Assembly: GCF_000518485.1 (NCBI RefSeq)
Contig: NZ_JADR01000001.1
Location: 186,001 to 250,000 of the forward strand
Length of the DNA stretch: 64,000 bases
From: Olleya marilimosa CAM030
Lineage (GTDB): Bacteria > Bacteroidota > Bacteroidia > Flavobacteriales > Flavobacteriaceae
Direction: 5' to 3'
The position numbers were made by a program, and so were the translations under genes. Below are positions 17,682 to 31,111 of this stretch, in pieces. Every line of letters starts with the position of its first letter. Within the stretch, counting starts at the first letter, position 1. The notes below the pieces were generated by a model. It searched no databases. It worked only from the letters and a program-made list of their open reading frames with translations, and had not been told where the DNA came from.

Positions 17682-19505
17682 TTATTCTTTAATCAGTTTT
17701 TTAGTAATACTACCGTTGTTGTTTTGTAGTCTTAAAATGTAGACACCTTTACTTAAGCTGGATAGACTAACTTTATTGTTTTTAGAAGTCACGTTACCTT
17801 TTAAAATCTTTTTACCTAAAATATCATAGATTTCAAAGCTAGAGTTTTCATTAACCTCAATAGTTAATAAGCTAGATTTAATAGGGTTTGGATATATTTT
17901 GATTTCTTGTTTGTTAAAGTCTTTAGTGCTTAGCGTAAAGCATGTCCATGATAAATCATCAATTCTAACTCTATTTCCTGACGATAGATTTACTAGTTGG
18001 ACAGTAATGTTATCCACAATATTAATATTGTTTATTGTGGTTGTAGTTGCTACTGTATTGTCTCCAGTGTATGGCACAGTTCCAACAGACGTACCATTTA
18101 CCAAAACATCTAAATTTCCTGCAGATCCACCAAAAGTAAGTTGTGTAGTAACTGTTAAACTACCAATACCTCCAGGAAGCGCAGGAGATGTTAATGATCC
18201 GTTTCTAATACAAATTGCTCTAGAGTTTATTTGTTGGTCAGTTCTAGCGTCTGTTGCAGTCCAACCGTCAGTAATACCATCATTTCCTGTCCAAACTCTT
18301 GTTGCATATGAACCTTGATTTGCTGGTATATTTTCAAAATCTTCAGAAGGACAATTGTTGTCGGTTGGTGTTCCTGCTAATGTAGTTTCAGTTGCTGTTG
18401 CACTTAAATTAGATTGATTTCCTGCAGCATCTTTAGCTAATATTGTAAATGTATAACTAGTCTCTGGTGATAAACCAGTCACAGTAAAAGTTGTAGCATC
18501 AGAACCAGTATTTGTGTAATAAGTTCCATCAACGTATACATCATATGTTGTAACTGCAGTGTCATCTGTTGATGCAGTCCAAGTTAGGTCTATAGTGGTT
18601 TCAGTAGGATTGTTAGCTACTAAATTTAATGGAGTAGAAGGTGCTTGTGTGTCTGTTGGTGGTTGACTTCCCCATCTGTTTTCAGCAGGTGTTCCTCCCC
18701 AAATTACTGTTGCTAAATAAGGGTTGTCAATAAATGGATTACGATTTCCTTGTGCATAGGTGTTTGAAGTATTAGCGTGATATGTATTTCTGTTATCTTC
18801 AATTAACGATACAGGGTCCTCAGCGTTCCAGTCTAATAATATGTTAATCATATTTGGATCAATACTATTAGTGGTTCCGTTTACAGCATAAGTAGGAAGA
18901 CATTGGCTTCCGTATCTTGTGTACATGTACATTATAATTCTTGCTGCATCACCTTTATATTCGTCACCTGGATACCATAGGCTTGAACCACTACTTGTGT
19001 TTCCTGCGTTTCCGGATCCTGCTGCAAATTTTTTATTTCCACGATTAGAATTCATTTGAACGTCCGATGGTCTTAAGTTATGACCATCAGCATAAGGTGG
19101 ACCTGAGGAACCAGAACTATCTAAACTAGGATTTGCTAATGAGTTAGGGAACACATGTTCTCTATTCCAATCAGTACCACTATTCCCACCGTTTAAGTTT
19201 TTATTTCTTGTTCTGTCAGTAACGTGATTGTTATCTGTGTCGCTATAACCGTAAAATAATCTAACGTTATTACTGTTGTCAGTATCTTCATCAGTCATTT
19301 TACTAGCTTCCCAAATACCTGGCGTGTAACTTAAGCTATTGGTATGGTTAACAGCAGTAACAACAGCTAAGTCATTAAATAAATCTAATTGTGTCTTAGT
19401 AAAGTCTACACCATTATAGTAAGCTTGAAGCTCTGTAGGAGGTGTTAACTGCGCATAACTAAAAGCAGTTATTAAAAATGATAGTAATAAGTAAAATTGT
19501 TTCAT
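17682..19505 (-). CDS. Secreted endonuclease I with FN3 domain and T9SS sorting domain
   Basis: A 607-aa, multi-domain exported nuclease. It has a signal peptide (residues 1-18, ending SYA), an endonuclease I domain (about 20-275) with the family's DGHNLRPSDVQMNSNRGNK core, a fibronectin type III domain (about 288-375), a beta-rich region (about 380-530), and a C-terminal T9SS type A sorting domain starting at IKIYPNP and ending KKLIKE. It probably degrades extracellular DNA/RNA for phosphate and nucleosides. Monocistronic, with its own terminator. Confidence 0.92.
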   Translation of the reverse strand: MKQFYLLLSFLITAFSYAQLTPPTELQAYYNGVDFTKTQLDLFNDLAVVTAVNHTNSLSYTPGIWEASKMTDEDTDNSNNVRLFYGYSDTDNNHVTDRTRNKNLNGGNSGTDWNREHVFPNSLANPSLDSSGSSGPPYADGHNLRPSDVQMNSNRGNKKFAAGSGNAGNTSSGSSLWYPGDEYKGDAARIIMYMYTRYGSQCLPTYAVNGTTNSIDPNMINILLDWNAEDPVSLIEDNRNTYHANTSNTYAQGNRNPFIDNPYLATVIWGGTPAENRWGSQPPTDTQAPSTPLNLVANNPTETTIDLTWTASTDDTAVTTYDVYVDGTYYTNTGSDATTFTVTGLSPETSYTFTILAKDAAGNQSNLSATATETTLAGTPTDNNCPSEDFENIPANQGSYATRVWTGNDGITDGWTATDARTDQQINSRAICIRNGSLTSPALPGGIGSLTVTTQLTFGGSAGNLDVLVNGTSVGTVPYTGDNTVATTTTINNINIVDNITVQLVNLSSGNRVRIDDLSWTCFTLSTKDFNKQEIKIYPNPIKSSLLTIEVNENSSFEIYDILGKKILKGNVTSKNNKVSLSSLSKGVYILRLQNNNGSITKKLIKE

Positions 19506-20870: not shown

Positions 20871-20954
20871 CGGTAAATAACACGAATTTGTGTTACTTTT
20901 TAACATTAAGATATTATAGATTTGTTATTTAGAAAATAATTTTAAATAAATGCG

Positions 20955-20982
20955 CAAGTTTTTTTAATCTATGGCATCTAAA
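20955..20982 (+). promoter_or_regulatory. ECF-type promoter, copy 1 (sigma factor gene)
   Basis: CAAGTT-N14-CATCTAAA, with CAAGTT at 20955-20960 and CATCTAAA at 20975-20982. It lies 28 bp before the TTG start of the ECF sigma gene. The same pair of boxes recurs four more times in the next 5.2 kb. It does not resemble the housekeeping TTG/TAnnTTTG promoters of this genome, and suggests that the sigma factor controls itself. Confidence 0.75.
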
Positions 20983-21010
20983 GTATTAACAACTGGAATA
21001 AATAGCATTT

Positions 21011-21589
21011 TTGACAGAAACAGATTTTATACACCAACTTAAGGCACAAAACAGAGCGTCTTATAGTAAGCTTTTGGAGGATTTTCAGCACAAAGTGTAT
21101 GGGACTTGTTTATCTTTTGTGCCAAATAGGGAAGATGCAGAGGATATTGCGCAGGAGGTTTTTGTAGAGGTTTTTAATTCTATTGATAAATTTAAGCAAG
21201 AGTCTAAACTATCCACATGGATATATAGGATTACAACTAATAAATGTTTAGAGTTTATTAGAAAAAAAAATGCTAAAAAACGTTTTGCATTTTTACAATC
21301 CTTATCCGGAAATGATTATAATCTTGATAAAGCAAGTTACTTTACAGAGATTAATCATCCAGGATTAGTATTGGAACAAAAGGAAACCAGTGAGGTCTTA
21401 TTTTTAGCTATTAACAAATTGCCAGAAGCACAACGTATAGTTTTTACATTAAATAAAATTGATGATAAAAGCTATAAAGAAATTAGCGAAATTACTAATA
21501 GAAGCATTGGGTCCATTGAATCTTTATTGTTTAGAGCCAAAAAGAATTTACAAAAAACATTAGAAAATTTTTATAAAAATCAAGAGTAA
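21011..21589 (+). CDS. ECF RNA polymerase sigma factor (module 1)
   Basis: A 192-aa sigma-70 group 4 protein. Region 2 covers about residues 25-90 (NREDAEDIAQEVFVEVF, then STWIYRITTNKCLEFIRKK); region 4 covers about 130-185 (LPEAQRIVFTLNKIDDKSYKEI, SIGSIESLLFRAKKNL). The start is TTG at 21011: an in-frame stop lies four codons upstream and no ATG is available in frame. The following genes encode a single-span anti-sigma candidate and a periplasmic sensor-like protein, an order resembling CnrYXH-type metal-responsive sigma systems. I infer that it drives the five CAAGTT/CATCTAAA promoters of this region. Confidence 0.93.
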   Translation: MTETDFIHQLKAQNRASYSKLLEDFQHKVYGTCLSFVPNREDAEDIAQEVFVEVFNSIDKFKQESKLSTWIYRITTNKCLEFIRKKNAKKRFAFLQSLSGNDYNLDKASYFTEINHPGLVLEQKETSEVLFLAINKLPEAQRIVFTLNKIDDKSYKEISEITNRSIGSIESLLFRAKKNLQKTLENFYKNQE

Positions 21590-21591
21590 CG

Positions 21592-21619
21592 CAAGTTTTT
21601 AAAAACTTTTACATCTAAA
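21592..21619 (+). promoter_or_regulatory. ECF-type promoter, copy 2 (anti-sigma candidate)
   Basis: CAAGTT (21592-21597), 14 bp, CATCTAAA (21612-21619). It sits directly after the sigma gene stop and only 5 bp before the ATG at 21625. A transcript starting at the usual distance from the downstream box would begin at or next to the start codon. Confidence 0.65.
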
Positions 21620-21624
21620 TTAAT

Positions 21625-21939
21625 ATGAACGCAAATAAAAATATTCAAGATAAAATAGATAGCACATTAAATGCTTTAGATACGTTAAATAGTGTCCAAG
21701 TGTCTCCTTTTTTTAAAGATAAAACTATGCAAAAAATGTTTGCAGAAAAACAAACTATTTCTAAGTCTTGGAGTTGGTTTACACCACAATTACAATTAGC
21801 AACGTTAGTCTGTGTAGTTATTGTAAACGTTTATGCTATCCGTCAAATAAAAAGCACAAAATATAATGAAGCTATCTCTAGTTTTGCCTCAGATTATGGA
21901 CTGAGCTCTGAATCAGAATCTTCATTATTTAATTTATAG
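21625..21939 (+). CDS. Single-span membrane protein, candidate anti-sigma factor (module 1)
   Basis: 104 aa. A polar N-terminus (about residues 1-50, presumably cytoplasmic, containing SPFFKDKTMQKMF) precedes one transmembrane helix (LQLATLVCVVIVNVYAI, about 56-72) and a short acidic tail outside. This layout is that of small anti-sigma factors such as CnrY, and the position right after an ECF sigma gene supports the role. Sequence similarity alone does not prove it. The next gene starts 2 bp after its stop. Confidence 0.7.
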   Translation: MNANKNIQDKIDSTLNALDTLNSVQVSPFFKDKTMQKMFAEKQTISKSWSWFTPQLQLATLVCVVIVNVYAIRQIKSTKYNEAISSFASDYGLSSESESSLFNL

Positions 21940-21941
21940 TT

Positions 21942-22403
21942 ATGAAAAAAAATACAGTTTTATATCTGTTACTAATTGTTTTAATTATAATGAATGGATT
22001 TTTTCTATTCAATTATATTGGACGTCCAGGTCAGAATGGACCTAAAGCTTCAGGAGATTTTATAGCTTCAGAATTAAATTTTAATGACCAACAATTAGCA
22101 CAATTTAAAAGTTTAGAGACTAAACACCATGATGTTATGCGTGCAGTTGGTGATGATATTAAGTCTTTAAAAGATCAATTATTTACTAACATTACAGCAA
22201 AAGCTGTCAATCAAAAAGATATTGACAATTTAATAGCAAACATTGCAGACAAAACAATAATTAAAGAAAATGAATTGTTTAAAAGGCTACGAGGCATCTA
22301 CAAGTTATGTGATGATAAACAAAAAGAACAATTTAAATCAATTATAAAGAAAGCACGAAGATTTGATAATCAAGGACCAAAACATCCTAGAAGACCAGAG
22401 TAA
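21942..22403 (+). CDS. CnrX/CpxP-like periplasmic sensor protein (module 1)
   Basis: 153 aa: an N-terminal membrane anchor (about 5-25) followed by a helical periplasmic domain, as in the Spy/CpxP and heavy-metal-sensor (CnrX) families. The first helix carries KHHDVM (His62, His63, Met66), side chains able to bind a metal; the C-terminus is basic (KHPRRPE). In CnrYXH, CnrX senses Co/Ni and controls release of the sigma factor by CnrY. The same triad order here suggests a metal or envelope-stress sensor; the ligand is unknown. Confidence 0.75.
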   Translation: MKKNTVLYLLLIVLIIMNGFFLFNYIGRPGQNGPKASGDFIASELNFNDQQLAQFKSLETKHHDVMRAVGDDIKSLKDQLFTNITAKAVNQKDIDNLIANIADKTIIKENELFKRLRGIYKLCDDKQKEQFKSIIKKARRFDNQGPKHPRRPE

Positions 22404-22420
22404 AACGCTTTTCTAAAATT

Positions 22421-22456
22421 AAAAAAGACCTTCAGTAAATTGAGGGTCTTTTTTTT
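22421..22456 (+). terminator. Terminator after the sigma/anti-sigma/sensor genes
   Basis: The stem AAAAAAGACCTTCA / TGAGGGTCTTTTTT (one G-U pair) has a 6-nt loop and continues into a T-run. It closes the first transcription unit of the ECF region. Confidence 0.85.
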
Positions 22457-22481
22457 GTGTTTTGTTTAACATACTTACACA

Positions 22482-22509
22482 CAAGTTATTTAATAAATAG
22501 TCATCTAAA
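22482..22509 (+). promoter_or_regulatory. ECF-type promoter, copy 3 (EF-hand/CotH unit)
   Basis: CAAGTT (22482-22487), 14 bp, CATCTAAA (22502-22509), 26 bp before the ATG of the EF-hand gene and after the preceding terminator. Spacing and both boxes match copies 1, 2 and 5. Confidence 0.75.
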
Positions 22510-22535
22510 TAGGCATAACAAATAAATTTTTAGAT

Positions 22536-22820
22536 ATGAAAAGTAACTTATTAAGTAAAGCAGTTTTAGTTTTTGGATTAACAATTTTAAGTGTTAATAG
22601 TACCAATGCACAATCTAACGATAGAGATAAAAAGGAGCCACCTACTTTTAGTCAATTATTAAAAGAAATGGATAAGGATGAAGATGGTAAATTATCTAAA
22701 ACAGAAATTAAAGGACCTTTAAAAGACAACTTTGATAAAATTGACGCAGATGAAGATGGTTTTATTACTGAAGCAGAATTTAAAAAAGCTCCAAAACCAA
22801 AAAAAAGAGAACGTAAATAG
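22536..22820 (+). CDS. Small exported two-EF-hand protein
   Basis: 94 aa with a signal peptide (about 1-25, ending NAQ). Two canonical EF-hand loops, DKDEDGKLSKTE (46-57) and DADEDGFITEAE (70-81), are separated by the linker IKGPLKDNFDKI; both have acidic residues at positions 1, 3, 5 and 12 and Gly at 6, so Ca2+ binding is expected. The tail is a run of Lys/Arg. The same two-loop module with nearly the same linker forms the C-terminus of the YHYH protein at 25005. Co-transcribed with the CotH gene, 31 bp downstream. Confidence 0.88.
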   Translation: MKSNLLSKAVLVFGLTILSVNSTNAQSNDRDKKEPPTFSQLLKEMDKDEDGKLSKTEIKGPLKDNFDKIDADEDGFITEAEFKKAPKPKKRERK

Positions 22821-22851
22821 TTAGCTAAAATAACCAATAAACCATAATGAT

Positions 22852-24288
22852 ATGAAGTACATAAATAGTAAATTAAATCTGTTACTAATAGTAATTGCAT
22901 TTAGTGTAACGTTAACAACTTTTAGTTCTTGTAACAATGATGAAGATGTAATAACAACGACTGAGGAAGACGAGGTTGCAGTAGTAATTGATGATACAGA
23001 TTTTGAAACTACAGATTGGACAACAGCAACCCATAGTAAGGATGCAGATCCAAATTTTGACGAAGTCTTTGAAGATAACGCAGTAAAAAGACTAGACATT
23101 GTCATTACAGAAGCACGCTGGCAAGCCATGTTAGATGATATGACAAATCTATACGGTACATTTGGTTCTGGAGCAGGAGGACCTGGAGGAGGTTTAACCG
23201 AAACTGATGAAGATCCAATTTTTGTACCTGCCGAAGTATATTATAATGGTATACAATGGTATCGTGTAGGTGTTAGATTTAAAGGTAATTCTAGCTTACA
23301 AACTAGTTGGCAAAATGGGATTTTAAAATTGTCTTTTAAATTAGATTTTGACGAGTTTGAAGATGACTATCCGCAAATAGATAACCAACGTTTTTATGGC
23401 TTTAAAAAATTAAGCCTTAAAAATAATTATGATGACAAGTCTATGTTGCGCGAAAAAGTAGCTACAGATGTTTTTAGAAACGCAGGATTAGTAGCTTCGC
23501 ACACTGCTTTTTATACAGTTTATGTAGATCATGGTGAGGGACCACAATATTTTGGCGTGTATACTATGGTGGAGGAAGTAGATGATACGGTTTTAGATAC
23601 ACAATTTTCTGATGACGATGGTAACTTGTATAAGCCAGATGGTGATGCAGCTAGTTTTGCTCTTGGAACTTATAATGAAAGTGAATATGTTAAAAAAACA
23701 AACGAAGATGAAGGCGATTTTAATGATGTTGCTAGCCTTTTAGCTGTGGTAAACGATGAGTCTAGAATAACAGACCCTGAAACTTGGAGATCAAACTTAG
23801 ATGCTATTTTAGATACTGATGTGTTTTTAAAATACTTAGCAGTAAACACAGTAGTCCAAAATTGGGATACTTATGGAAGGATGACTCATAATTATTTTTT
23901 ATATAATAATCCTGATACAAGCAAGCTAACATGGATTCCTTGGGATAATAATGAAGCATTGCAAACAGGAAAAATGGGAGGATCATTACCATTGGACTTT
24001 TCTGGATTAAATAGCGCAGAATGGCCATTAATAGGTTATTTGTATCAAGATTCGGTTTACAAATCACAGTATGATACTTATGTGCAAGACGTTGTTGATA
24101 ATGCTTTTAATGTTAGCACAATTCAATCTCTTTATACAAATTATGCAGCGTTAATACAACCTTATGCAACATCAGAAGTTGCTGGTTATAGCTTTTTAGA
24201 AAACGGATCAGATTTTCAAAATGCAGTTAATCAATTAAATACGCATGTATCTTCACGTGCTGCTGCAGTAAGTGATTATTTAGATTAA
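22852..24288 (+). CDS. CotH-kinase family lipoprotein
   Basis: 478 aa. The signal peptide ends at lipobox cysteine Cys27 (FSSCNND), followed by an acidic stretch. The CotH domain covers about residues 75-400: VRFKGNSS, then FYGFKKLSLKNNYDDKSMLRE, the YFGVYTMVEEVDD strand and the C-terminal IPWDNNEAL segment, where the WDxD motif of many relatives reads WDNN. CotH proteins are secreted protein kinases (in Bacillus they phosphorylate coat proteins). A surface or periplasmic kinase acting on a neighbouring secreted protein is possible but inferred. Confidence 0.9.
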   Translation: MKYINSKLNLLLIVIAFSVTLTTFSSCNNDEDVITTTEEDEVAVVIDDTDFETTDWTTATHSKDADPNFDEVFEDNAVKRLDIVITEARWQAMLDDMTNLYGTFGSGAGGPGGGLTETDEDPIFVPAEVYYNGIQWYRVGVRFKGNSSLQTSWQNGILKLSFKLDFDEFEDDYPQIDNQRFYGFKKLSLKNNYDDKSMLREKVATDVFRNAGLVASHTAFYTVYVDHGEGPQYFGVYTMVEEVDDTVLDTQFSDDDGNLYKPDGDAASFALGTYNESEYVKKTNEDEGDFNDVASLLAVVNDESRITDPETWRSNLDAILDTDVFLKYLAVNTVVQNWDTYGRMTHNYFLYNNPDTSKLTWIPWDNNEALQTGKMGGSLPLDFSGLNSAEWPLIGYLYQDSVYKSQYDTYVQDVVDNAFNVSTIQSLYTNYAALIQPYATSEVAGYSFLENGSDFQNAVNQLNTHVSSRAAAVSDYLD

Positions 24289-24317
24289 AAATTATAATTA
24301 ATTTGTTGATAGTAGTT

Positions 24318-24351
24318 AAAGGCTTCATTATGTAAAACTTATGAGGCCTTT
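24318..24351 (+). terminator. Terminator after the CotH gene
   Basis: The stem AAAGGCTTCAT / ATGAGGCCTTT (one wobble pair) has a 12-nt loop and T-rich flank, 29 bp downstream of the CotH stop. Confidence 0.6.
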
Positions 24352-24406
24352 ATTATCTCGATATACAATTAACACGAAACACATTCAACATAAAAATATT
24401 TAATAA

Positions 24407-24435
24407 CAAGTTTTATATAAAAAAAATCATCTAAA
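24407..24435 (+). promoter_or_regulatory. ECF-type promoter, copy 4 (EF-hand/YHYH unit)
   Basis: CAAGTT (24407-24412), 15 bp, CATCTAAA (24428-24435), 20 bp before the ATG at 24456. The boxes are identical to the other copies; the spacer is one base longer. Confidence 0.7.
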
Positions 24436-24455
24436 GCTTATAAACAGGATTTAAA

Positions 24456-24983
24456 ATGAAAAATAACCAATTAAAAACAGGACTTACAATTTTTTCAATG
24501 CTATTATGTTTTAGCGTTTTTGCTCAAGGACCTCCAGGTGGAGGTGGACAAGGCGGAAGAGGAGGCGGAAGAGGTCAGCAACGTGGTGGCACACCAGATG
24601 CGTCTGAAATTCTTTCAAAATTAGACACTAATAAAGATCAAGTGATTGATAAAGAGGAAGCTGCTAATGATAAAAGAGGAAAAATTGTTAAAGATTTTGA
24701 TGTTATTGATACTAACGAAGATGGAGTCATAGATTTAGATGAATTGAAAGCGTCTTTAGATGATAAAAAACCTAAAAAGATTTCAGCAAATAAAATAATT
24801 AAAGAAGTAGATGATAATGCAGACGGAACTTTAAACGAATTAGAAGTTGCTGCAAAAAATAAAATAGAATTATCGGACAATTTTAGTAAGATTGATACTA
24901 ATAGTGATGGCGAATTAGACTTAGCTGAGTTAAAGGCGTTTTATGAAACACATGATAAACCCAAACGTAAAAAAAGAGATTGA
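24456..24983 (+). CDS. Exported four-EF-hand protein with Gly-rich segment
   Basis: 175 aa. A signal peptide (about 1-24, ending FAQ) is followed by a Gly/Arg-rich segment (25-45) and four EF-hand loops: DTNKDQVIDKEE (57-68, Gly6 replaced by Gln), DTNEDGVIDLDE (85-96), DDNADGTLNELE (119-130) and DTNSDGELDLAE (147-158). The last three are canonical, so a calmodulin-like Ca2+-binding secreted protein is expected. The C-terminus is basic. It shares a transcript with the YHYH gene 21 bp downstream. Confidence 0.88.
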   Translation: MKNNQLKTGLTIFSMLLCFSVFAQGPPGGGGQGGRGGGRGQQRGGTPDASEILSKLDTNKDQVIDKEEAANDKRGKIVKDFDVIDTNEDGVIDLDELKASLDDKKPKKISANKIIKEVDDNADGTLNELEVAAKNKIELSDNFSKIDTNSDGELDLAELKAFYETHDKPKRKKRD

Positions 24984-25004
24984 TTTAATTTCAAAAAAAA
25001 GAAT

Positions 25005-26147
25005 ATGAAAAGCCTATATAAAGTTTTAGTACTTGTAATGCTTGGTCTGTTGTTTGGTTGTAATAGTCAAAAAAAGACAACAACACATAGCCATGATGGA
25101 TTACAAAATCATTCGCATGATACAGATCACACATTTAAAACAACAAATAATTACTATGGTAATTATGAGCTTGAAGACACTACGTATGGTACAAAAACTA
25201 AGGTTACGGTTAATGGTGATATACGTGTTATGGTAACTAATTCGTTGCCAAACCACGAAACAGGTACATTTCCTAATCAAGGAAATCCTAATACTATAGC
25301 AGCTCAAAATATTACCTATAAATTTCCGGTGACACCTAAATATACAGGAAAAGCACAGTGGATGAGAGAGCCAGGAATAGCTTTAAACGGTATAAAATTT
25401 GAACCTCAAACAGCAGAGGTTGTTGTTTGTGATACAGGAGAAAATTATCGTGTAGAGGCTATTCAGGATGTTATTGATTTAGGTTTGGATTTTAATCATG
25501 CTCACGTACAACCTACAGGAGCTTATCACTATCATGGTACACCAACATCTCTAATTTCAAAATTTGATATAGGACAAGATTTGGTTCATATAGGTTTTGC
25601 TCATGATGGATTTCCTATGTACTATTCTAAAAGTGGACAATATAAACCTAGCTTTAAATTGTTAGACGGAACCAGAGAAGGTGAGGATTGTACTTATGAT
25701 AATCCACATCAACATATGGATATTGCTGTTGGAGGACATCATGACGGAACGTATGGTTCAGATTACGAGTATGTAGCTGGTTATGGCGATTTGGACGAGT
25801 GTAATGGTATTACTGTAGATGGTAAGTATATGTATTTAGTAACTAATGAATTTCCTTACGTTGGTCGTTGTGTTATGGGAGAAGTAGAAAGTCAAGAACA
25901 AGGACCTCCAAATGGTCAACAAAATGGTCAAGAAGGACGTCCAGAACCATCACAGATTATTAAACATATGGATGATAATAAGGATGGCAAATTGTCAAAA
26001 AATGAAGTTAAAGGACCTTTAAAAGAAGATTTTACTAAAATAGATGCTAATGACGATGGGTTTTTAACTAAAGAAGAATTGCAAAAAGTCTCAAATAACA
26101 GAGGTCAAAGACCACTCGGAAAAAAAACTCAAGTTGAAAAAAAATAA
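25005..26147 (+). CDS. YHYH-domain lipoprotein fused to two EF-hands
   Basis: 380 aa. The lipobox ends at Cys19 (LLFGCNS); a His-rich segment follows (His28, 30, 36, 38, 42). The YHYH domain covers about 60-290, with the name motif GAYHYHG (174-177), AHDGFPMYY and a second His cluster (HQHMD, GGHHDG). After a Gln/Gly/Pro linker come two canonical EF-hand loops, DDNKDGKLSKNE (323-334) and DANDDGFLTKEE (347-358). YHYH-domain function is unknown; the clustered histidines suggest metal binding. The fusion joins a Ca2+ module to a likely transition-metal module. Confidence 0.85.
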   Translation: MKSLYKVLVLVMLGLLFGCNSQKKTTTHSHDGLQNHSHDTDHTFKTTNNYYGNYELEDTTYGTKTKVTVNGDIRVMVTNSLPNHETGTFPNQGNPNTIAAQNITYKFPVTPKYTGKAQWMREPGIALNGIKFEPQTAEVVVCDTGENYRVEAIQDVIDLGLDFNHAHVQPTGAYHYHGTPTSLISKFDIGQDLVHIGFAHDGFPMYYSKSGQYKPSFKLLDGTREGEDCTYDNPHQHMDIAVGGHHDGTYGSDYEYVAGYGDLDECNGITVDGKYMYLVTNEFPYVGRCVMGEVESQEQGPPNGQQNGQEGRPEPSQIIKHMDDNKDGKLSKNEVKGPLKEDFTKIDANDDGFLTKEELQKVSNNRGQRPLGKKTQVEKK

Positions 26148-26162
26148 ATTTTGCTAAGACCG

Positions 26163-26190
26163 CAAGTTTTTAAAATATCACGCATCTAAA
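26163..26190 (+). promoter_or_regulatory. ECF-type promoter, copy 5 (YHYH/MORN/SCO unit)
   Basis: CAAGTT (26163-26168), 14 bp, CATCTAAA (26183-26190), 30 bp before the ATG at 26221. No clear terminator separates it from the gene at 25005, so the unit may also receive readthrough. Confidence 0.75.
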
Positions 26191-26220: not shown

Positions 26221-27054
26221 ATGAAAAACGTATTTAAATCATCTATTTTAATATTAACTATATGTGTAATATTTGTATCCTGTAGTGATGACGACGCAGC
26301 AAATACTGGTACAACAACAGAAGGAGATGTAACAGCAGCAACATTGCATAATGCATTTTCAGAATTTAATGCAACTAATACCACCATTACATTAAATGGT
26401 ACCAATGTTACAATTCAAACTAATGGGTTGCCTGACCATACGTCACCTTATTGGTCCAATACAGTTTCAAGATCTTTAGTAGGTCCGCAAGGTGTAACTT
26501 TTACAACAGTTTCTAACGCTGACCATCCATTATGGGTTGAGCCAACAGTAACAAGTTATGATCAAATGGCACCAGGAAATATTGACGATTTTAATGGATC
26601 ATACTCCTTAACAGTATCTGCAAATCCACAATTAGCAAGTAGCAGTACAGCAACAGGATTAGGTGCTATTGGTATCTCAATTTCAGGATCTGTAATTTAT
26701 AATGATGAGGAAGGACCAAACGTACCTTTGGATAATGCAGTAGGATCTCTAGATTATACAGCAGCACATACAGGACCACAAAGTTATCACTACCATTTAG
26801 AGCCTAAAGCTTGGTCTAATGATGACGAAGCGTTAATTGGTATTATTGCAGATGGTTTTTTTCTTTATGGTCGTAAATGTAATGCAACAGGAACATATCC
26901 TACAGATTTGGATGCATCAGGAGGACATACAAGTACAACGCAACATACAACAACAGCAGAGTACCATTACCATATCCAAAACGAATTATATTTAAACGCA
27001 TATTATATTTTATTTCCAGGTGATTATCAAGGTACTCCAAGCAATATCCTTTAA
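26221..27054 (+). CDS. YHYH-domain lipoprotein
   Basis: 277 aa. The signal peptide ends at lipobox Cys21 (FVSCSDDD). The mature protein has two YHYH motifs, SYHYHLE (189-192) and EYHYHIQ (248-251), with IADGFFLYGR between them, a segment that parallels AHDGFPMYY in the other YHYH protein. It has no EF-hand. The family has no established activity; paired His motifs suggest a metal site. The MORN gene starts within its last 35 bases, so the two are translationally linked. Confidence 0.85.
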   Translation: MKNVFKSSILILTICVIFVSCSDDDAANTGTTTEGDVTAATLHNAFSEFNATNTTITLNGTNVTIQTNGLPDHTSPYWSNTVSRSLVGPQGVTFTTVSNADHPLWVEPTVTSYDQMAPGNIDDFNGSYSLTVSANPQLASSSTATGLGAIGISISGSVIYNDEEGPNVPLDNAVGSLDYTAAHTGPQSYHYHLEPKAWSNDDEALIGIIADGFFLYGRKCNATGTYPTDLDASGGHTSTTQHTTTAEYHYHIQNELYLNAYYILFPGDYQGTPSNIL

Positions 27055-27652
27055 AAACTGTTTTTTATTCAGTTTAATACTTTTTTTTAACTGTCAAAAT
27101 CAGACTAATAATACAGCGCTAGTTAATAACGCTCAAGCGGAAATAATAACTATTAATATCCCTAAGTCACAATTAGTCTTAAAACCAAACTTTGGTTTGG
27201 TCTACTTACAAGATAAGCCTTTTAGTGGGACGTCAATTTTAAAATATAATAACAACACTATTGCTGAAGCTATTGATTACAAAAACGGAATTAAAAATGG
27301 TGTTTTTAAAAAATGGTTTGAAGATGGCACATTAAGTTTTGAAGCTTTTTATGCCAATGGACAATTACATGGTGTGTCAAAATCATGGTGGTCAAATGGT
27401 AATTTAAGATCAGAGTCACATTATATAAACGGAAAAGCTAATGGTATTCAAAAACAATGGTATGTCTCTGGACAAAAATTTAAACTAATGACGTTAGTCA
27501 ATGGTAAAGAAGAAGGTATGCAGCAAGCTTGGAGACGTAACGGAAAAATTTATAATAACTATCAAGCTAAAAATGGTCGCATTTTTGGATTAAAACGTGC
27601 TAACCTGTGTTTTCAATTAGAAGAAGAAATTGTACAAGATGAAAAACTATAG
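27020..27652 (+). CDS. MORN-repeat lipoprotein (YwqK-like)
   Basis: 210 aa. The start is GTG at 27020, inside the 3' end of the YHYH gene; no ATG precedes the lipoprotein signal, whose cysteine is in LFFNCQN. Four MORN/YwqK-type repeats follow (about residues 75-190), each with an aromatic-rich W(F/W/Y/R)..G core such as WFEDGTLSFEA and WWSNGNLRSES. MORN repeats form extended beta sheets and mediate contacts. The usual database label of YwqK antitoxin is not supported by any toxin gene here. Confidence 0.75.
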   Translation: MIIKVLQAISFKNCFLFSLILFFNCQNQTNNTALVNNAQAEIITINIPKSQLVLKPNFGLVYLQDKPFSGTSILKYNNNTIAEAIDYKNGIKNGVFKKWFEDGTLSFEAFYANGQLHGVSKSWWSNGNLRSESHYINGKANGIQKQWYVSGQKFKLMTLVNGKEEGMQQAWRRNGKIYNNYQAKNGRIFGLKRANLCFQLEEEIVQDEKL

Positions 27653-28295
27653 CTTATTATTTTTAGTAGTATTATTATGTAACTGTAAAGGTAAAACCGA
27701 AGTTAAAAGTAGTAGGGTAAATGCCTTACCTTATTATAGCGATGCTAGTTTTACGCCTCATTGGTTAGAAGGTAAAACAACCGATTTAAAATCGTTTCAT
27801 AAAATACCAGAGTTTACATTAACAAATCAAGATGGACAACAAATCACACAAAAAACGTTTGAAAATAAAATTTACGTAACAGATTTCTTTTTTACATCAT
27901 GTCCTGGGATTTGTCCAAAAATGACAGAAAACATGTCTGTATTGCAAGACGCGTTTAAAGATGATGATCAAGTCTTATTATTATCACACTCCGTAACACC
28001 AGTTAAAGATTCTGTATCAATTTTAAAACATTACGCAGAAGGTAAAGGCGTAATAACTAATAAATGGCATTTAGTTACAGGAGACAGAAAACAAATTTAT
28101 GATTTAGGAAGACAAGCTTATTTTGTTGAAGAAGATTTAGGAAACAAAAAGACAGATGATGACTTTTTACATACCGAAAATTTTGTATTAATTGATAAAA
28201 ACAAACATATACGAGGCATTTATAATGGATTAAATAAAACTGCTGTACAACAATTAATAGCAGATATAAAAACCTTAGAGATTGAAGACAAATAA
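27639..28295 (+). CDS. SCO-family copper chaperone lipoprotein
   Basis: 218 aa from the ATG at 27639, which overlaps the MORN gene by 14 bp. A lipoprotein-type signal (LLCNCKG) leads into a thioredoxin-like SCO domain with the copper-binding pair Cys88 and Cys92 (SCPGICP) and the conserved His in FLHTENF near residue 175. SCO proteins deliver Cu(I) to the CuA site of cytochrome oxidase or reduce its thiols. No oxidase gene lies nearby, so a role in the metal chemistry of this ECF regulon is possible. Confidence 0.92.
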   Translation: MKNYSLLFLVVLLCNCKGKTEVKSSRVNALPYYSDASFTPHWLEGKTTDLKSFHKIPEFTLTNQDGQQITQKTFENKIYVTDFFFTSCPGICPKMTENMSVLQDAFKDDDQVLLLSHSVTPVKDSVSILKHYAEGKGVITNKWHLVTGDRKQIYDLGRQAYFVEEDLGNKKTDDDFLHTENFVLIDKNKHIRGIYNGLNKTAVQQLIADIKTLEIEDK

Positions 28296-28316: not shown

Positions 28317-28347
28317 GAAAAGCTTCGCTGTAATGGTGGAGCTTTTC
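28317..28347 (+). terminator. Probable terminator after the SCO gene
   Basis: The stem GAAAAGCT / AGCTTTTC has a 15-nt loop and is followed by a T-rich stretch. It would end the YHYH-MORN-SCO transcript. Confidence 0.5.
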
Positions 28348-28370: not shown

Positions 28371-29468
28371 ATGAAAAAAATAATATATTTAATATTTGGT
28401 ATTTCGCTTATAATTGGATTAGGAAGTTGTGGTGTTGGAAAATATAAAGTAGCATCTAAACCTGAAGCAAAAACATTTTCTTCAGTTACAATTGATACGC
28501 TTATTGAAGATGAAACCCTAAATGTTAGAGCTATTGAGGTTGTTGATTCAGTTGGTCTAGCTTACTTAACTTCAGATGGTAAATTTGGCATGTATTTTAA
28601 TAATGATGCGCCAGAATTTGATACCATTAAAAAAGCATTACCTATTCAAATAAAGCATGATACAATTACTCCAAACTTTAGGGCATTGGCTATTGCGGAT
28701 AATAAAGGGTTTGGTTTAAGTATCGGTTCGCCTGCTTTGGTTTTTAATTTAGATGTTGATTTGCATAAAAATACTGTGGTTTACCAAGAAAATCATGAAA
28801 AAGCATTTTATGATTCTATGGCGTTTTGGAACGAAAATGAAGGTATCGCTATAGGAGACCCAACAGATGATTGTTTAAGTGTTATTATTACAAGAGATAA
28901 AGGAAAAACATGGACTAAACTATCTTGTGATGTATTACCAAAAGCTAAAGACGGTGAAGCTGCTTTTGCTGCAAGTGATACTAATATTGCAATGGTAGGT
29001 GATAAAACATGGGTTGCAACAGGAGGTAAGGCAAGTCGTATATTATATTCACCAGACAAAGGTTACACGTGGCAAGTATTTGATACACCAATAATACAAG
29101 GCTTAGAAACTACAGGTATATATAGTATTGATTTTTATGATGAAAACAATGGATTTGCTGTAGGAGGAGATTATACTAAAGCGGACAATAATGTTGCTAA
29201 TAAAATAAGAACTTTAGATGGTGGAAAAACCTGGCAAGTAGTTGCTGACGGAGTTGGTCCAGGTTACAGAAGTTGTGTGCAGTATGTCCCAAATAGTAAT
29301 GCAAGACAATTAGTTGCTATAGGTTTTAAAGGGATAGATTATAGTAGTGATGCTGGTACTACTTGGACGCATTTAAGTGATGATGGATATTATACTTTAC
29401 GTTTTTTAAACGACAGTACTGCGTATGCTGCAGGAAATAAGAAAATTAGTAAACTAACCTTTAAATAG
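28371..29468 (+). CDS. BNR/Ycf48-like beta-propeller lipoprotein
   Basis: 365 aa with a lipobox at GLGSCGV (about residue 20). BNR/sialidase-type blades recur as Asp-x-Gly-x-(T)-W signatures: DKGKTWTKL, DKGYTWQVF, DGGKTWQVV, DAGTTWTHL. This matches the Ycf48/HCF136-like propeller group, often labelled oxidoreductase in this phylum without evidence for that activity. No CAAGTT/CATCTAAA motif precedes it and a hairpin separates it from the SCO gene, so it probably lies outside the ECF regulon. Confidence 0.8.
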   Translation: MKKIIYLIFGISLIIGLGSCGVGKYKVASKPEAKTFSSVTIDTLIEDETLNVRAIEVVDSVGLAYLTSDGKFGMYFNNDAPEFDTIKKALPIQIKHDTITPNFRALAIADNKGFGLSIGSPALVFNLDVDLHKNTVVYQENHEKAFYDSMAFWNENEGIAIGDPTDDCLSVIITRDKGKTWTKLSCDVLPKAKDGEAAFAASDTNIAMVGDKTWVATGGKASRILYSPDKGYTWQVFDTPIIQGLETTGIYSIDFYDENNGFAVGGDYTKADNNVANKIRTLDGGKTWQVVADGVGPGYRSCVQYVPNSNARQLVAIGFKGIDYSSDAGTTWTHLSDDGYYTLRFLNDSTAYAAGNKKISKLTFK

Positions 29469-29569: not shown

Positions 29570-29599
29570 AAAAAAAGAAGCCAATTGGCTTCTTTTTTT
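29570..29599. terminator. Bidirectional terminator
   Basis: A perfect 30-bp inverted repeat (A-run plus GAAGCCAA / TTGGCTTC plus T-run) lies between convergent genes. Its right edge overlaps the stop codon of the gene at 29598-30044. Confidence 0.85.
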
Positions 29600-30044
29600 A
29601 ATCTTTTTTATGTCTTCCTCTAAATTCTTCAATCATTTTTCTTTTAAAGGAGCGTTCTGCATTAAAGAGTAGTACAATTTTTTTGTAGCTAATTATTTTT
29701 GAAAGTTTATCCACGTAAATTTTATAGCTTTTTACTCTAGCGTCTTCCAAATCTTGCATGTCCTTAATTAAAGTTTCAGCTTCTTTGTTAGTTAATTTTG
29801 TAACATCAATATCCTTACGTTTGATGTCAGATGCGTCTCTTAATTTACTTTTTTGTGCTTCAAAGTCATTATAAATAGGCCAAAAAGCTTCAGCTTCTTT
29901 AGAAGTAAAATCTAATTGCTCTGTAATATGTGCTACTTTTAAAGCTTTAAGTTTTTCGTGTTGTTTTATTTTTTCTTTTTGTGCAATTGCACTAAAAGAA
30001 AACACTAAAACTAATAATGTTATAATATGTTTTTTCATAGTCAT
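29598..30044 (-). CDS. Spy/CpxP-like periplasmic protein, sensor of ECF module 2
   Basis: 148 aa with a signal peptide (about 1-21, ending AIAQ) and a charged, helical mature part. It contains the QLDFTSKEAEAFWPIYNDFE segment typical of Spy/CpxP-like proteins encoded beside flavobacterial ECF sigma genes. It is the third gene of the sigma - anti-sigma - sensor order in module 2, 5 bp after the previous stop. It probably senses envelope conditions; no metal-binding His/Met cluster like that of module 1 is visible. Confidence 0.7.
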   Translation of the reverse strand: MTMKKHIITLLVLVFSFSAIAQKEKIKQHEKLKALKVAHITEQLDFTSKEAEAFWPIYNDFEAQKSKLRDASDIKRKDIDVTKLTNKEAETLIKDMQDLEDARVKSYKIYVDKLSKIISYKKIVLLFNAERSFKRKMIEEFRGRHKKD

Positions 30045-30049
30045 GTGTT

Positions 30050-30532
30050 TTATTCTTGGTATAAGTCGTTTAAATCTATATCGTCAATATAGTCATCAAC
30101 GTCTATTAAATTATAATCTATAAAATCTGTTTGAGATAATTCCGAGTCATTAATTAATAAATTAAGATCATTAATTTCAATTTCATTTATAATATAGTTT
30201 TCTACAGTTTCTGTATCTAAGCTGTTTAATGTAGGAGCTGATTTAAAAAGGTTTATATTAAATAATAATACTATAGCAGCAGCGACACTAGATAACGATA
30301 CAATAGTTTTTTTGTTAAATAGGTTAAATACTTTAGGTTCTGGTTTATCTAATTTAGTTAAGATTTTGTTTTCTAAAGTTTCAAAATAACCATCAGGAAC
30401 ATTAAAACCAGAGGTTTTAGAATGTGATTCCAAAGCAGCTTGTGCTAGAATGGTATCTTCTAATCCTTCAAAGTAATCCTTTGGCAATTTAAAGCCTGAG
30501 GTCTTGATTGTATTTAGGGTTTCTTTTTTCAT
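30050..30532 (-). CDS. Membrane protein with N-terminal repeat, candidate anti-sigma factor (module 2)
   Basis: 160 aa. The cytoplasmic N-terminus holds two copies of the same unit, SGFKLPKDYFEGLEDTIL (about 11-28) and SGFNVPDGYFETLENKIL (about 42-59). One transmembrane helix (IVSLSSVAAAIVLLFNINLF, about 88-107) follows, then a strongly acidic C-terminal tail ending DDIDLNDLYQE. The location between an ECF sigma gene and a Spy-like gene supports an anti-sigma role; no known anti-sigma domain is recognised by eye. Confidence 0.6.
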   Translation of the reverse strand: MKKETLNTIKTSGFKLPKDYFEGLEDTILAQAALESHSKTSGFNVPDGYFETLENKILTKLDKPEPKVFNLFNKKTIVSLSSVAAAIVLLFNINLFKSAPTLNSLDTETVENYIINEIEINDLNLLINDSELSQTDFIDYNLIDVDDYIDDIDLNDLYQE

Positions 30533-30565
30533 TGTATTAATAAGACTAAAAAAAACGTAATTGGT

Positions 30566-31111
30566 TTAATGTGCTTTTAAATAGGCTTCTATTTTTTTTG
30601 AAGCTAAATGGTAAGATGCCTTTAATGCACCTTCGCTGGTGTCAAGTATTTCTGATAATTCGCTGTATTTTAAATCTTGAAAATATTTCATGTTAAACAC
30701 TAATTGTTGTTTTTCAGGAAGTGTAGCTATTGCTTTTTGAAGTTTAATTTGAATATCTTCTCCTTCAAAGTAAACATCAGATTGTAAATTGTTAATGGCT
30801 AAATCCTGAGCATCTTCATTAGTAATATTTTTTAATTTGGCATTTCTTTTTAAATGCGTTAAAGCTTCATTTGTTGCAATTCTATATAACCAAGAATATA
30901 ACTGACTATCGCCTTTAAATTTATTGATGTTTTTAAAAACTTTAATAAATGTATTTTGTAATACGTCATCAGCATCATCATGAGACTTTACAATATGTCT
31001 TATGTGCCAATACAAGCGCTCTTTATATAGCGTGATTAGTGTTTTAAAAGCAGCATTTTTTTGTGACTCAGATTGTAGTTGCTGCACTAAAAGTGTTTCG
31101 GTTTCTGACAT
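30566..31111 (-). CDS. ECF RNA polymerase sigma factor (module 2)
   Basis: 181 aa. Region 2 has DDADDVLQNTFIKVFKNI and SWLYRIATNEALTHLKR; region 4 has LPEKQQLVFNMKYFQDLKYSEL and EGALKASYHLASKKI. The gene starts a minus-strand unit with the anti-sigma and sensor candidates (gaps of 33 and 5 bp). A possible auto-promoter, AAACT-N15-AGTCTAAA (31146-31119), ends just before its ATG. A terminator at 31336-31366 isolates it from the exporter gene upstream. Confidence 0.92.
   Translation of the reverse strand: MSETETLLVQQLQSESQKNAAFKTLITLYKERLYWHIRHIVKSHDDADDVLQNTFIKVFKNINKFKGDSQLYSWLYRIATNEALTHLKRNAKLKNITNEDAQDLAINNLQSDVYFEGEDIQIKLQKAIATLPEKQQLVFNMKYFQDLKYSELSEILDTSEGALKASYHLASKKIEAYLKAH

Follow-up and report, generated by a model that had tools for sequence, protein, structure and literature searches.

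A probable ECF sigma factor promoter, present in five copies, and its gene cluster in Olleya marilimosa and other Flavobacteriaceae

The window analysed here is a stretch of 64,000 nucleotides from Olleya marilimosa CAM030 (contig NZ_JADR01000001.1, positions 186,001 to 250,000, forward strand), which carries, between 21 and 28.3 kb, a gene cluster in which the same two-box element recurs at five sites. These sites are very probably the promoter of the extracytoplasmic function (ECF) sigma factor encoded at 21011, which would drive them all as one cluster. With the same high confidence, the promoter can be described by a -35 region CGCAAGTTT and a -10 region GCATCTAAA, CAAGTT being separated from CATCTAAA by a spacer of 14 nt or, rarely, 15 nt. 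At the level of sequence, comparison of genomes shows the motif itself, how it is tied to the sigma gene, how strict its geometry is and which genes the sites are wired to. Very little is known in Bacteroidota of the promoters that ECF sigma factors use, and a 2020 paper states that no motif was known for any ECF sigma factor of B. thetaiotaomicron (PMC7366714). The five sites are as follows, the 52 sigma loci being those defined further below.

20955..20982, + strand: promoter site 1, exact boxes with a 14-nt spacer (N14), before the sigma gene; position weight matrix (PWM) score 39.4; a matching site is present in 20 of the 52 sigma loci
21592..21619, + strand: promoter site 2, exact, N14; starts 2 nt past the stop codon of sigma, with 5 nt from its end to the ATG of the anti-sigma candidate; all 52 sigma loci have a counterpart, at 0-2 mismatches
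22482..22509, + strand: promoter site 3, exact, N14; 3' of the terminator-like hairpin at 22421-22454
24407..24435, + strand: promoter site 4, exact boxes with a 15-nt spacer (N15)
26163..26190, + strand: promoter site 5, exact, N14

The initial annotation had reported five sites with identical boxes, and this was borne out: CAAGTT-N14/15-CATCTAAA has exactly five copies in the window, all on the + strand, at 20955, 21592, 22482 and 26163 with N14 and at 24407 with N15, whereas 100 dinucleotide-preserving shuffles of the window give a chance expectation of 0. Both boxes are the same in all copies, while spacers and flanks vary. It had also placed every site upstream of a transcription unit or of the anti-sigma candidate, and each site is indeed followed by a codirectional open reading frame (ORF), namely the sigma gene at 21011, the anti-sigma candidate at 21625, the EF-hand genes at 22536 and 24456, and the YHYH gene at 26221. 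The stronger statement, a motif at the head of every transcription unit, is correct within 21-28.3 kb but not for the next gene, at 28371, which stands behind a hairpin (28317-28347) and lacks an exact site. The motif is not common elsewhere. Throughout the source genome (3.34 Mb, 27 contigs), the N14/N15 form is confined to the five sites of the cluster, and a relaxed N12-18 form returns the same five plus one N13 match on contig 2. Allowing up to 2 mismatches at N14 yields 84 matches against 72 for the reversed pattern, which is near background, and the three one-mismatch N14 matches sit within open frames of 167-368 codons. This mismatch-tolerant scan gave no convincing additional regulon member in the source genome; by this test, the recognisable regulon there is the cluster itself.

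The strongest tie between the motif and the sigma gene comes from a comparison set of 299 genomes of the family. An orthologue of the 21011 sigma factor is encoded by 35 of them, from 29 genera, always with E <= 2.3e-76, and a gap separates these from the next best matches, in genomes G076 and G287 (7.8e-41 and 1.3e-36), which were counted as sigma-minus. The exact N14/N15 motif occurs in 74 of the 299 genomes (148 sites; 0-3 per genome for the reversed-pattern control). Exact N14 sites number 94 in 30 of the 35 sigma-plus genomes as against 17 in 17 of the 264 sigma-minus genomes, an enrichment of about 42-fold per genome, so that the conservation in related genomes proposed as a check by the initial annotation was found. 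The binomial p-value for this split, 1.5e-69, is overstated and not to be taken literally because the genomes are related. The five sigma-plus genomes devoid of an exact N14 site (G086, G188, G207, G211 and G248) carry it with 1-2 mismatches at the junction between sigma and anti-sigma genes (L120, L116, L099, L118 and L108, respectively). The sensor gene is found in 36 of the 299 genomes, the same 35 as the sigma gene plus a weak match in G287, and a genome from the same genus as the window (G171) has neither a sigma match nor the motif.

Homologues of the YHYH gene of the 26221 type separate the sigma factor from its putative target, since they occur in 50 of the 299 genomes, 24 sigma-plus and 26 sigma-minus. 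Among the loci examined, the motif (N14 or N15, up to 2 mismatches) lies upstream in 13 of 13 from sigma-plus genomes, 8 of them exact N14, and in 0 of 17 from sigma-minus genomes, where the best upstream match has 3-5 mismatches (one locus, L170, offered just 305 bp of upstream sequence). The motif therefore goes with the sigma factor and not merely with the target gene, although the 13 sigma-plus loci overlap with the 52 sigma loci and are not independent of them. The claim that one ECF sigma factor, that encoded at 21011, reads all five sites is thus supported by their confinement to the cluster, the tracking of the sigma gene, the 14-nt spacer and the position before ORFs.

The geometry of the sites was examined in 52 sigma loci, comprising 34 from the family genome set, 17 further loci and the window. 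Of 23 further loci found, Olleya aquimaris and Lacinutrix himadriensis being among their sources, L058 and L059 were dropped as weak matches, L057 for a sigma factor only 43% identical, and L045, L046 and L050 as duplicates of L102, L103 and L115. With up to 1 mismatch, 157 of 162 N14 sites are intergenic and 5 lie inside genes; 154 of these sites have a codirectional ORF downstream, at a median distance of 25.5 nt (three quarters at 32 nt or less, 5-95% range 4-242 nt, as placed by a simple ORF caller). Exact matches on both strands number 116 at N14, 2 at N15 and none at N11-13, N16 or N17, and 197 shuffled motifs average 0.01 exact matches in the same loci, with at most 1. The junction logo reads CGCAAGTTTT...GCATCTAAA. 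By comparison, the sites fit a dedicated target promoter of two boxes at fixed spacing, as expected of an ECF system. In 7 loci, the EF-hand-YHYH-MORN-SCO operon is divergent from the sigma gene, and the site has turned with the operon onto the opposite strand (5 exact N14, 1 exact N15 in L054 and 1 N15 with one mismatch).

The spacer reported at first, 14 nt and once 15, stands as counted, with the refinement that N14 is the real spacer. Exact N15 sites are not enriched with the sigma gene (4 in the 35 sigma-plus genomes versus 33 in the 264 sigma-minus genomes). N15 was accordingly rejected as a general alternative, on these counts and on the 2 exact matches against 116 in the sigma loci, and is retained as a variant seen rarely, at homologous positions. 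Upstream of the second EF-hand gene (24456-type), where the window has N15, an N14 site with 0-1 mismatch is present in 11 of 16 non-duplicate relatives and missing from the other 5.

Sites before the sigma gene and before the anti-sigma candidate behave differently. A site follows the sigma stop codon in all 52 loci, with 0, 1 and 2 mismatches in 34, 14 and 4 of them, and begins 0-5 nt past the stop codon in 50, the remaining distances being 16 or 42 nt (L112 and L114). Before the sigma gene (within 160 nt), PWM scores are bimodal: 20 loci score at least 22 and 32 score no higher than -8.3, the maximum among reversed controls being -0.6. The site ahead of sigma is therefore a feature of the window but not the general property that the junction site is. 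The fixed element would be sigma-dependent expression of anti-sigma and sensor, and sigma autoactivation the variable one. On the sigma tree, the upstream site requires 5 changes, as against a mean of 16.3 after shuffling (0 of 500 shuffles as low), and well-supported branches force only 2 of them. The deepest branches, including Flagellimonas and Muricauda, have no site before sigma, but the direction of change is tentative because of the midpoint root and a long outgroup branch. These patterns suggest that the promoter ahead of the presumed anti-sigma gene is always kept while sigma self-activation comes and goes; the predicted positive autoregulation is a lineage-variable trait, present here and in near kin.

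A housekeeping -7 box (TAnnTTTG) was sought within 200 nt before sigma. Among the 32 loci that lack site 1 it was found in 2 (10 for the reversed control), and among the 20 loci that have site 1 in 7 (control 6). Thirty of the 32 sigma genes without an upstream site of their own, for example in L041-L044, L048 and L090, thus also lack this box within that distance. In the window, such a box at 20917 could give basal sigma expression, though boxes of this kind show no excess over reversed controls. In 8 of 51 loci with an assigned start, just 3-5 nt separate the -10 box from the anti-sigma ATG, and in the window the distance is 5 nt (21619-21625), so that transcripts from site 2 may have no leader. 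Leaderless mRNAs are reported at 5.5% in Flavobacterium psychrophilum (PMC9723704). Site 2 also holds a perfect 16-nt palindrome, AAGTTTTTAAAAACTT, at 21593-21608; alike stretches occur in some relatives, and it is not general.

The genes behind the five sites are the following.

21011..21589, + strand: ECF sigma factor, 192 aa, TTG start; Sigma70_r2 1e-17, Sigma70_r4_2 1.8e-16
21625..21939, + strand: anti-sigma candidate, 104 aa, one apparent transmembrane segment
21942..22403, + strand: candidate for a membrane-anchored Spy/CnrX-like periplasmic sensor, 153 aa; LTXXQ (Spy/CpxP) 1.9e-5
22536..22820, + strand: EF-hand protein, 94 aa; EF-hand_1 4.5e-10, two stretches
22852..24288, + strand: CotH kinase-family protein, probable lipoprotein; CotH 1.8e-73, lipobox-like Cys read by eye
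24456..24983, + strand: EF-hand protein, 175 aa; EF-hand_5 5.2e-15, EF-hand_1 in three stretches
25005..26147, + strand: YHYH-domain protein with C-terminal EF-hands; YHYH 7.3e-53, EF-hand_5 6e-9
26221..27054, + strand: YHYH protein, probable lipoprotein; YHYH 6.1e-11
27020..27652, + strand: MORN-repeat protein; MORN_2 1.1e-10
27639..28295, + strand: SCO1/SenC protein; SCO1-SenC 3.3e-26, followed by the terminator-like hairpin at 28317-28347

The sigma protein has only the sigma2 and sigma4 domains within its 192 aa, which is the ECF architecture, and its regions 2.3-2.4, which contact DNA, are conserved above average (0.89 vs 0.79). Terminator-like hairpins were seen at 22421-22454 and 28317-28347, but the hairpin scan as a whole is not significant because it counts 6 in the region against 2.9 (standard deviation 2.2) in shuffles. 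Since it reports none from the sigma stop codon to the anti-sigma start, anti-sigma and sensor could be read from both sites 1 and 2. The structural model of the YHYH protein is weak (predicted local distance difference test, pLDDT, 67.9) and gave no fold match at E <= 0.001. The domain is described as uncharacterised and predicted to be zinc-binding, a metal-dependent hydrolase (PMC7824862).

The anti-sigma candidate has a conserved PFFKDK segment preceding its hydrophobic stretch. It matched no Pfam family, and no credible sequence match was found in the PDB up to E 5. The zinc signature of class I anti-sigma factors (Hx3Cx2C) was not found either, the window protein having no His and the orthologues, read by eye, no such invariant columns; not all class I anti-sigma domains bind zinc. 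Class I anti-sigma factors are reported to be associated with only 6% of Bacteroidetes ECFs (PMC7406223).

As for the sensor candidate, a profile built from 46 orthologues finds Spy among PDB entries (2.6e-5). Its structural model (pLDDT 84.1, predicted template modelling score, pTM, 0.62) shows an N-terminal helix and a helical hairpin. A Foldseek search with this model lists Spy, CpxP, ZraP and CnrX, with no match at E <= 0.001 (E values of 0.08 or more). Among the matches listed, CnrX has the best template modelling (TM) score by query length (0.55-0.59), with 0.58 for 3epv, 0.78 by target, a root-mean-square deviation of 2.9 and about 6% identity. On this model, the protein is a candidate for a CnrX-like membrane-anchored periplasmic sensor fold. 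Possible ligands are conserved, H62 in 43 of 46 orthologues, M66 in 40, C123 in 44 and a His at 115 in 27 (Arg in the window); the metal ligands of CnrX are H42, H46, E63, H119 and M123. Copper may be the signal, given these soft ligands and the SCO1 protein; calcium, zinc and redox are also possible.

These elements suggest a mechanism. The sigma factor would be held inactive by the small membrane protein encoded at 21625, the presumed anti-sigma, itself controlled by the periplasmic Spy/CnrX-like protein encoded at 21942. On a signal that is probably periplasmic stress, from a metal or of another kind, the sigma factor would be freed and would then transcribe five units: itself; anti-sigma and sensor; EF-hand and CotH; EF-hand and YHYH; and YHYH-MORN-SCO1. 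The promoter between sigma and anti-sigma would be the conserved core of the wiring, giving negative feedback as well as more sensor. The start sites, the binding of sigma to anti-sigma, the signal and the physiological output are inferred parts of this mechanism.

The closest analogy is the CnrYXH system of Cupriavidus metallidurans, made up of the sigma factor CnrH, the class II anti-sigma factor CnrY and the metal sensor CnrX, which likewise combines an ECF sigma factor with a short membrane anti-sigma (here a candidate) and a membrane-anchored helical sensor; the window sigma factor matches CnrH at 3.1e-7. The two differ in gene order, which is sigma, anti-sigma, sensor in the window and Y-X-H in the Cnr system, and in content, as the Cnr regulon consists of metal-efflux pumps while no efflux gene was found among the window proteins or the scanned representatives of relatives. 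The window anti-sigma candidate has no detectable relation to the solved CnrY, though short two-helix proteins may escape such a search, and the sensor differs from CnrX by its identity of about 6% and by the absence of a Foldseek match at E <= 0.001. Escherichia coli sigma-E (RpoE) is the closest solved relative of the window sigma factor (best PDB match, 1.8e-23), and the window promoter is similar to that of sigma-E in its -10 box, TCTAAA, and in the 16 nt that lead from GTT to TCTAAA. By contrast, the -35 element is CAAGTT and not the GGAACTT of sigma-E, the NCBIfam RpoE score is 97.5 against a cut-off of 236.15, and scans of the window proteins found no RseA-type anti-sigma. The sensor recalls E. 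coli Spy/CpxP by its profile match to Spy. Within the same family, the ECF motif SM6 of F. psychrophilum is also an ECF-type promoter whose targets include one ECF/anti-sigma unit; it has a CGT box in its -10 region and heads genes related to the type IX secretion system, whereas here the -10 box is CATCTAAA and the targets are others (PMC9723704). Early hallmarks of ECFs were an AAC box (-35), a CGT box (-10) and positive autoregulation, the boxes having since been dropped as defining; autoregulation is stated for about 55% of ECFs (PMC8103513). The window promoter, with CGCAAGTTT and GCATCTAAA, has neither box. The system appears to be a further ECF sigma system, with good support for its promoter, cognate sigma factor and target genes and with a feedback wiring that is informative, while sensing and output are put forward more conditionally. 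The triad design also seems to recur with other promoters, at L184 (G287) and L185 (G076).

The content of the regulon in relatives was counted from the first six ORFs behind sites with up to 1 mismatch, by BLAST against window proteins, so the counts are lower bounds. Among the 52 loci, motif-headed operons contain a family member of anti-sigma in at least 47, sensor in at least 47, YHYH2 in at least 37, MORN in at least 34, SCO in at least 33, EF1 in at least 26, sigma in at least 20, and EF2, YHYH1 and CotH in at least 15 each. Ten exact N14 sites outside the cluster in other sigma-plus genomes were inspected. Seven precede an ORF, encoding sulfatase-like lipoproteins (L124, L012), a PAP2 protein (L125), CotH (L126), YHYH (L127), a di-haem cytochrome c peroxidase (L025) and a VTC-domain protein (L029, at 194 nt). 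Of the others, L128 has no ORF in range, and L018 and L129, situated inside open frames of 138-152 codons, seem to be chance matches. A VTC-domain gene, presumably of the polyphosphate-polymerase type, also stands with DUF4956 in a motif-headed operon at L099:10206-12304 (- strand). We found no literature description of a flavobacterial regulon with this content, though the sigma factor may still belong to a numbered ECF group. Three neighbours of the cluster in the window can be mentioned:

28371-29468: BNR/YCF48-like lipoprotein gene directly behind the cluster, past the terminator-like hairpin and without an exact site; the BLAST group to which it belongs counts 29 ORF entries from motif-headed operons, spread over 21 loci, window included
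29598-31111, - strand: second ECF sigma gene (30566-31111), then genes for 160-aa and 148-aa proteins of no clear family, in an order resembling the first triad
17682-19505, - strand: Endonuclease I protein that carries an fn3 domain and, C-terminally, a Por secretion-system tail

Other explanations of the five sites fare poorly. It is very improbable that the two boxes serve a classical DNA-binding regulator as its operator and are not a sigma promoter. Box pairs at fixed spacing also occur as operators and the site at 21592 contains a 16-nt palindrome, but this palindrome is not fixed in the junction logo, and the boxes are directional, with ORFs a median of 25.5 nt further on. Moreover, of the three genes searched across genomes (sigma, sensor and YHYH), it is sigma and sensor that coincide, and the sigma protein has the DNA-binding domain. 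There is only a slim chance that the promoter is real but read by one or more other ECF sigma factors, for example that encoded at 30566-31111. Motif counts follow the 21011 orthologue (of the two sigma factors, the 21011 type alone was searched across genomes), no exact site lies near the second sigma unit, and related triads of sigma, membrane protein and Spy-like protein in G076 and G287 (sigma 48-51% identical) have no motif at their junctions. What speaks for such a reader is the second ECF sigma gene just 9 kb away, together with the overlap of ECF regulons thought likely in F. psychrophilum (PMC9723704). Five identical box pairs inside 5.2 kb might also stem from a repeat that dispersed recently, or from upstream segments that were duplicated, and have no function. 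This is hardly credible, as spacers and flanks differ between copies, the boxes are fixed across 52 loci at sigma identities down to 60%, and shuffled motifs of the same composition do not recur.

Several points also weigh against reading the sites as the promoter of the 21011 sigma factor within such a circuit. The overall conservation of its region 4.2 is no better than that of the remainder (0.78 vs 0.79). The protein encoded at 21625 is presumably an anti-sigma factor by its position, topology and conservation, with no structurally known relative found. In most of the 32 loci that lack site 1, the sigma gene has no recognisable promoter to account for its transcription. As N15 is not enriched genome-wide, the window's fourth site depends on synteny. 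Finally, the tests are not independent, because the compared genomes are related and the loci of several tests overlap.

If the reading of the five sites as a promoter of this sigma factor is extended to the family, the cluster might represent a widespread flavobacterial ECF circuit, an extension that we propose tentatively and with more doubt than confidence. Its promoter for anti-sigma and sensor would be invariant and sigma-driven, and sigma autoactivation would be optional and probably later. A sensor of CnrX-like fold, in which His, Met and Cys are conserved, would detect copper or another soft metal and induce a set of secreted products, namely calcium-binding EF-hand proteins, CotH kinases, YHYH proteins and SCO1, a combination not yet described as a regulon. 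Sigma factor, promoter, presumed anti-sigma and sensor, and targets are defined together across 29 genera of one family, so that each step is directly testable, and the loci with and without a site before sigma provide a natural experiment on feedback wiring.

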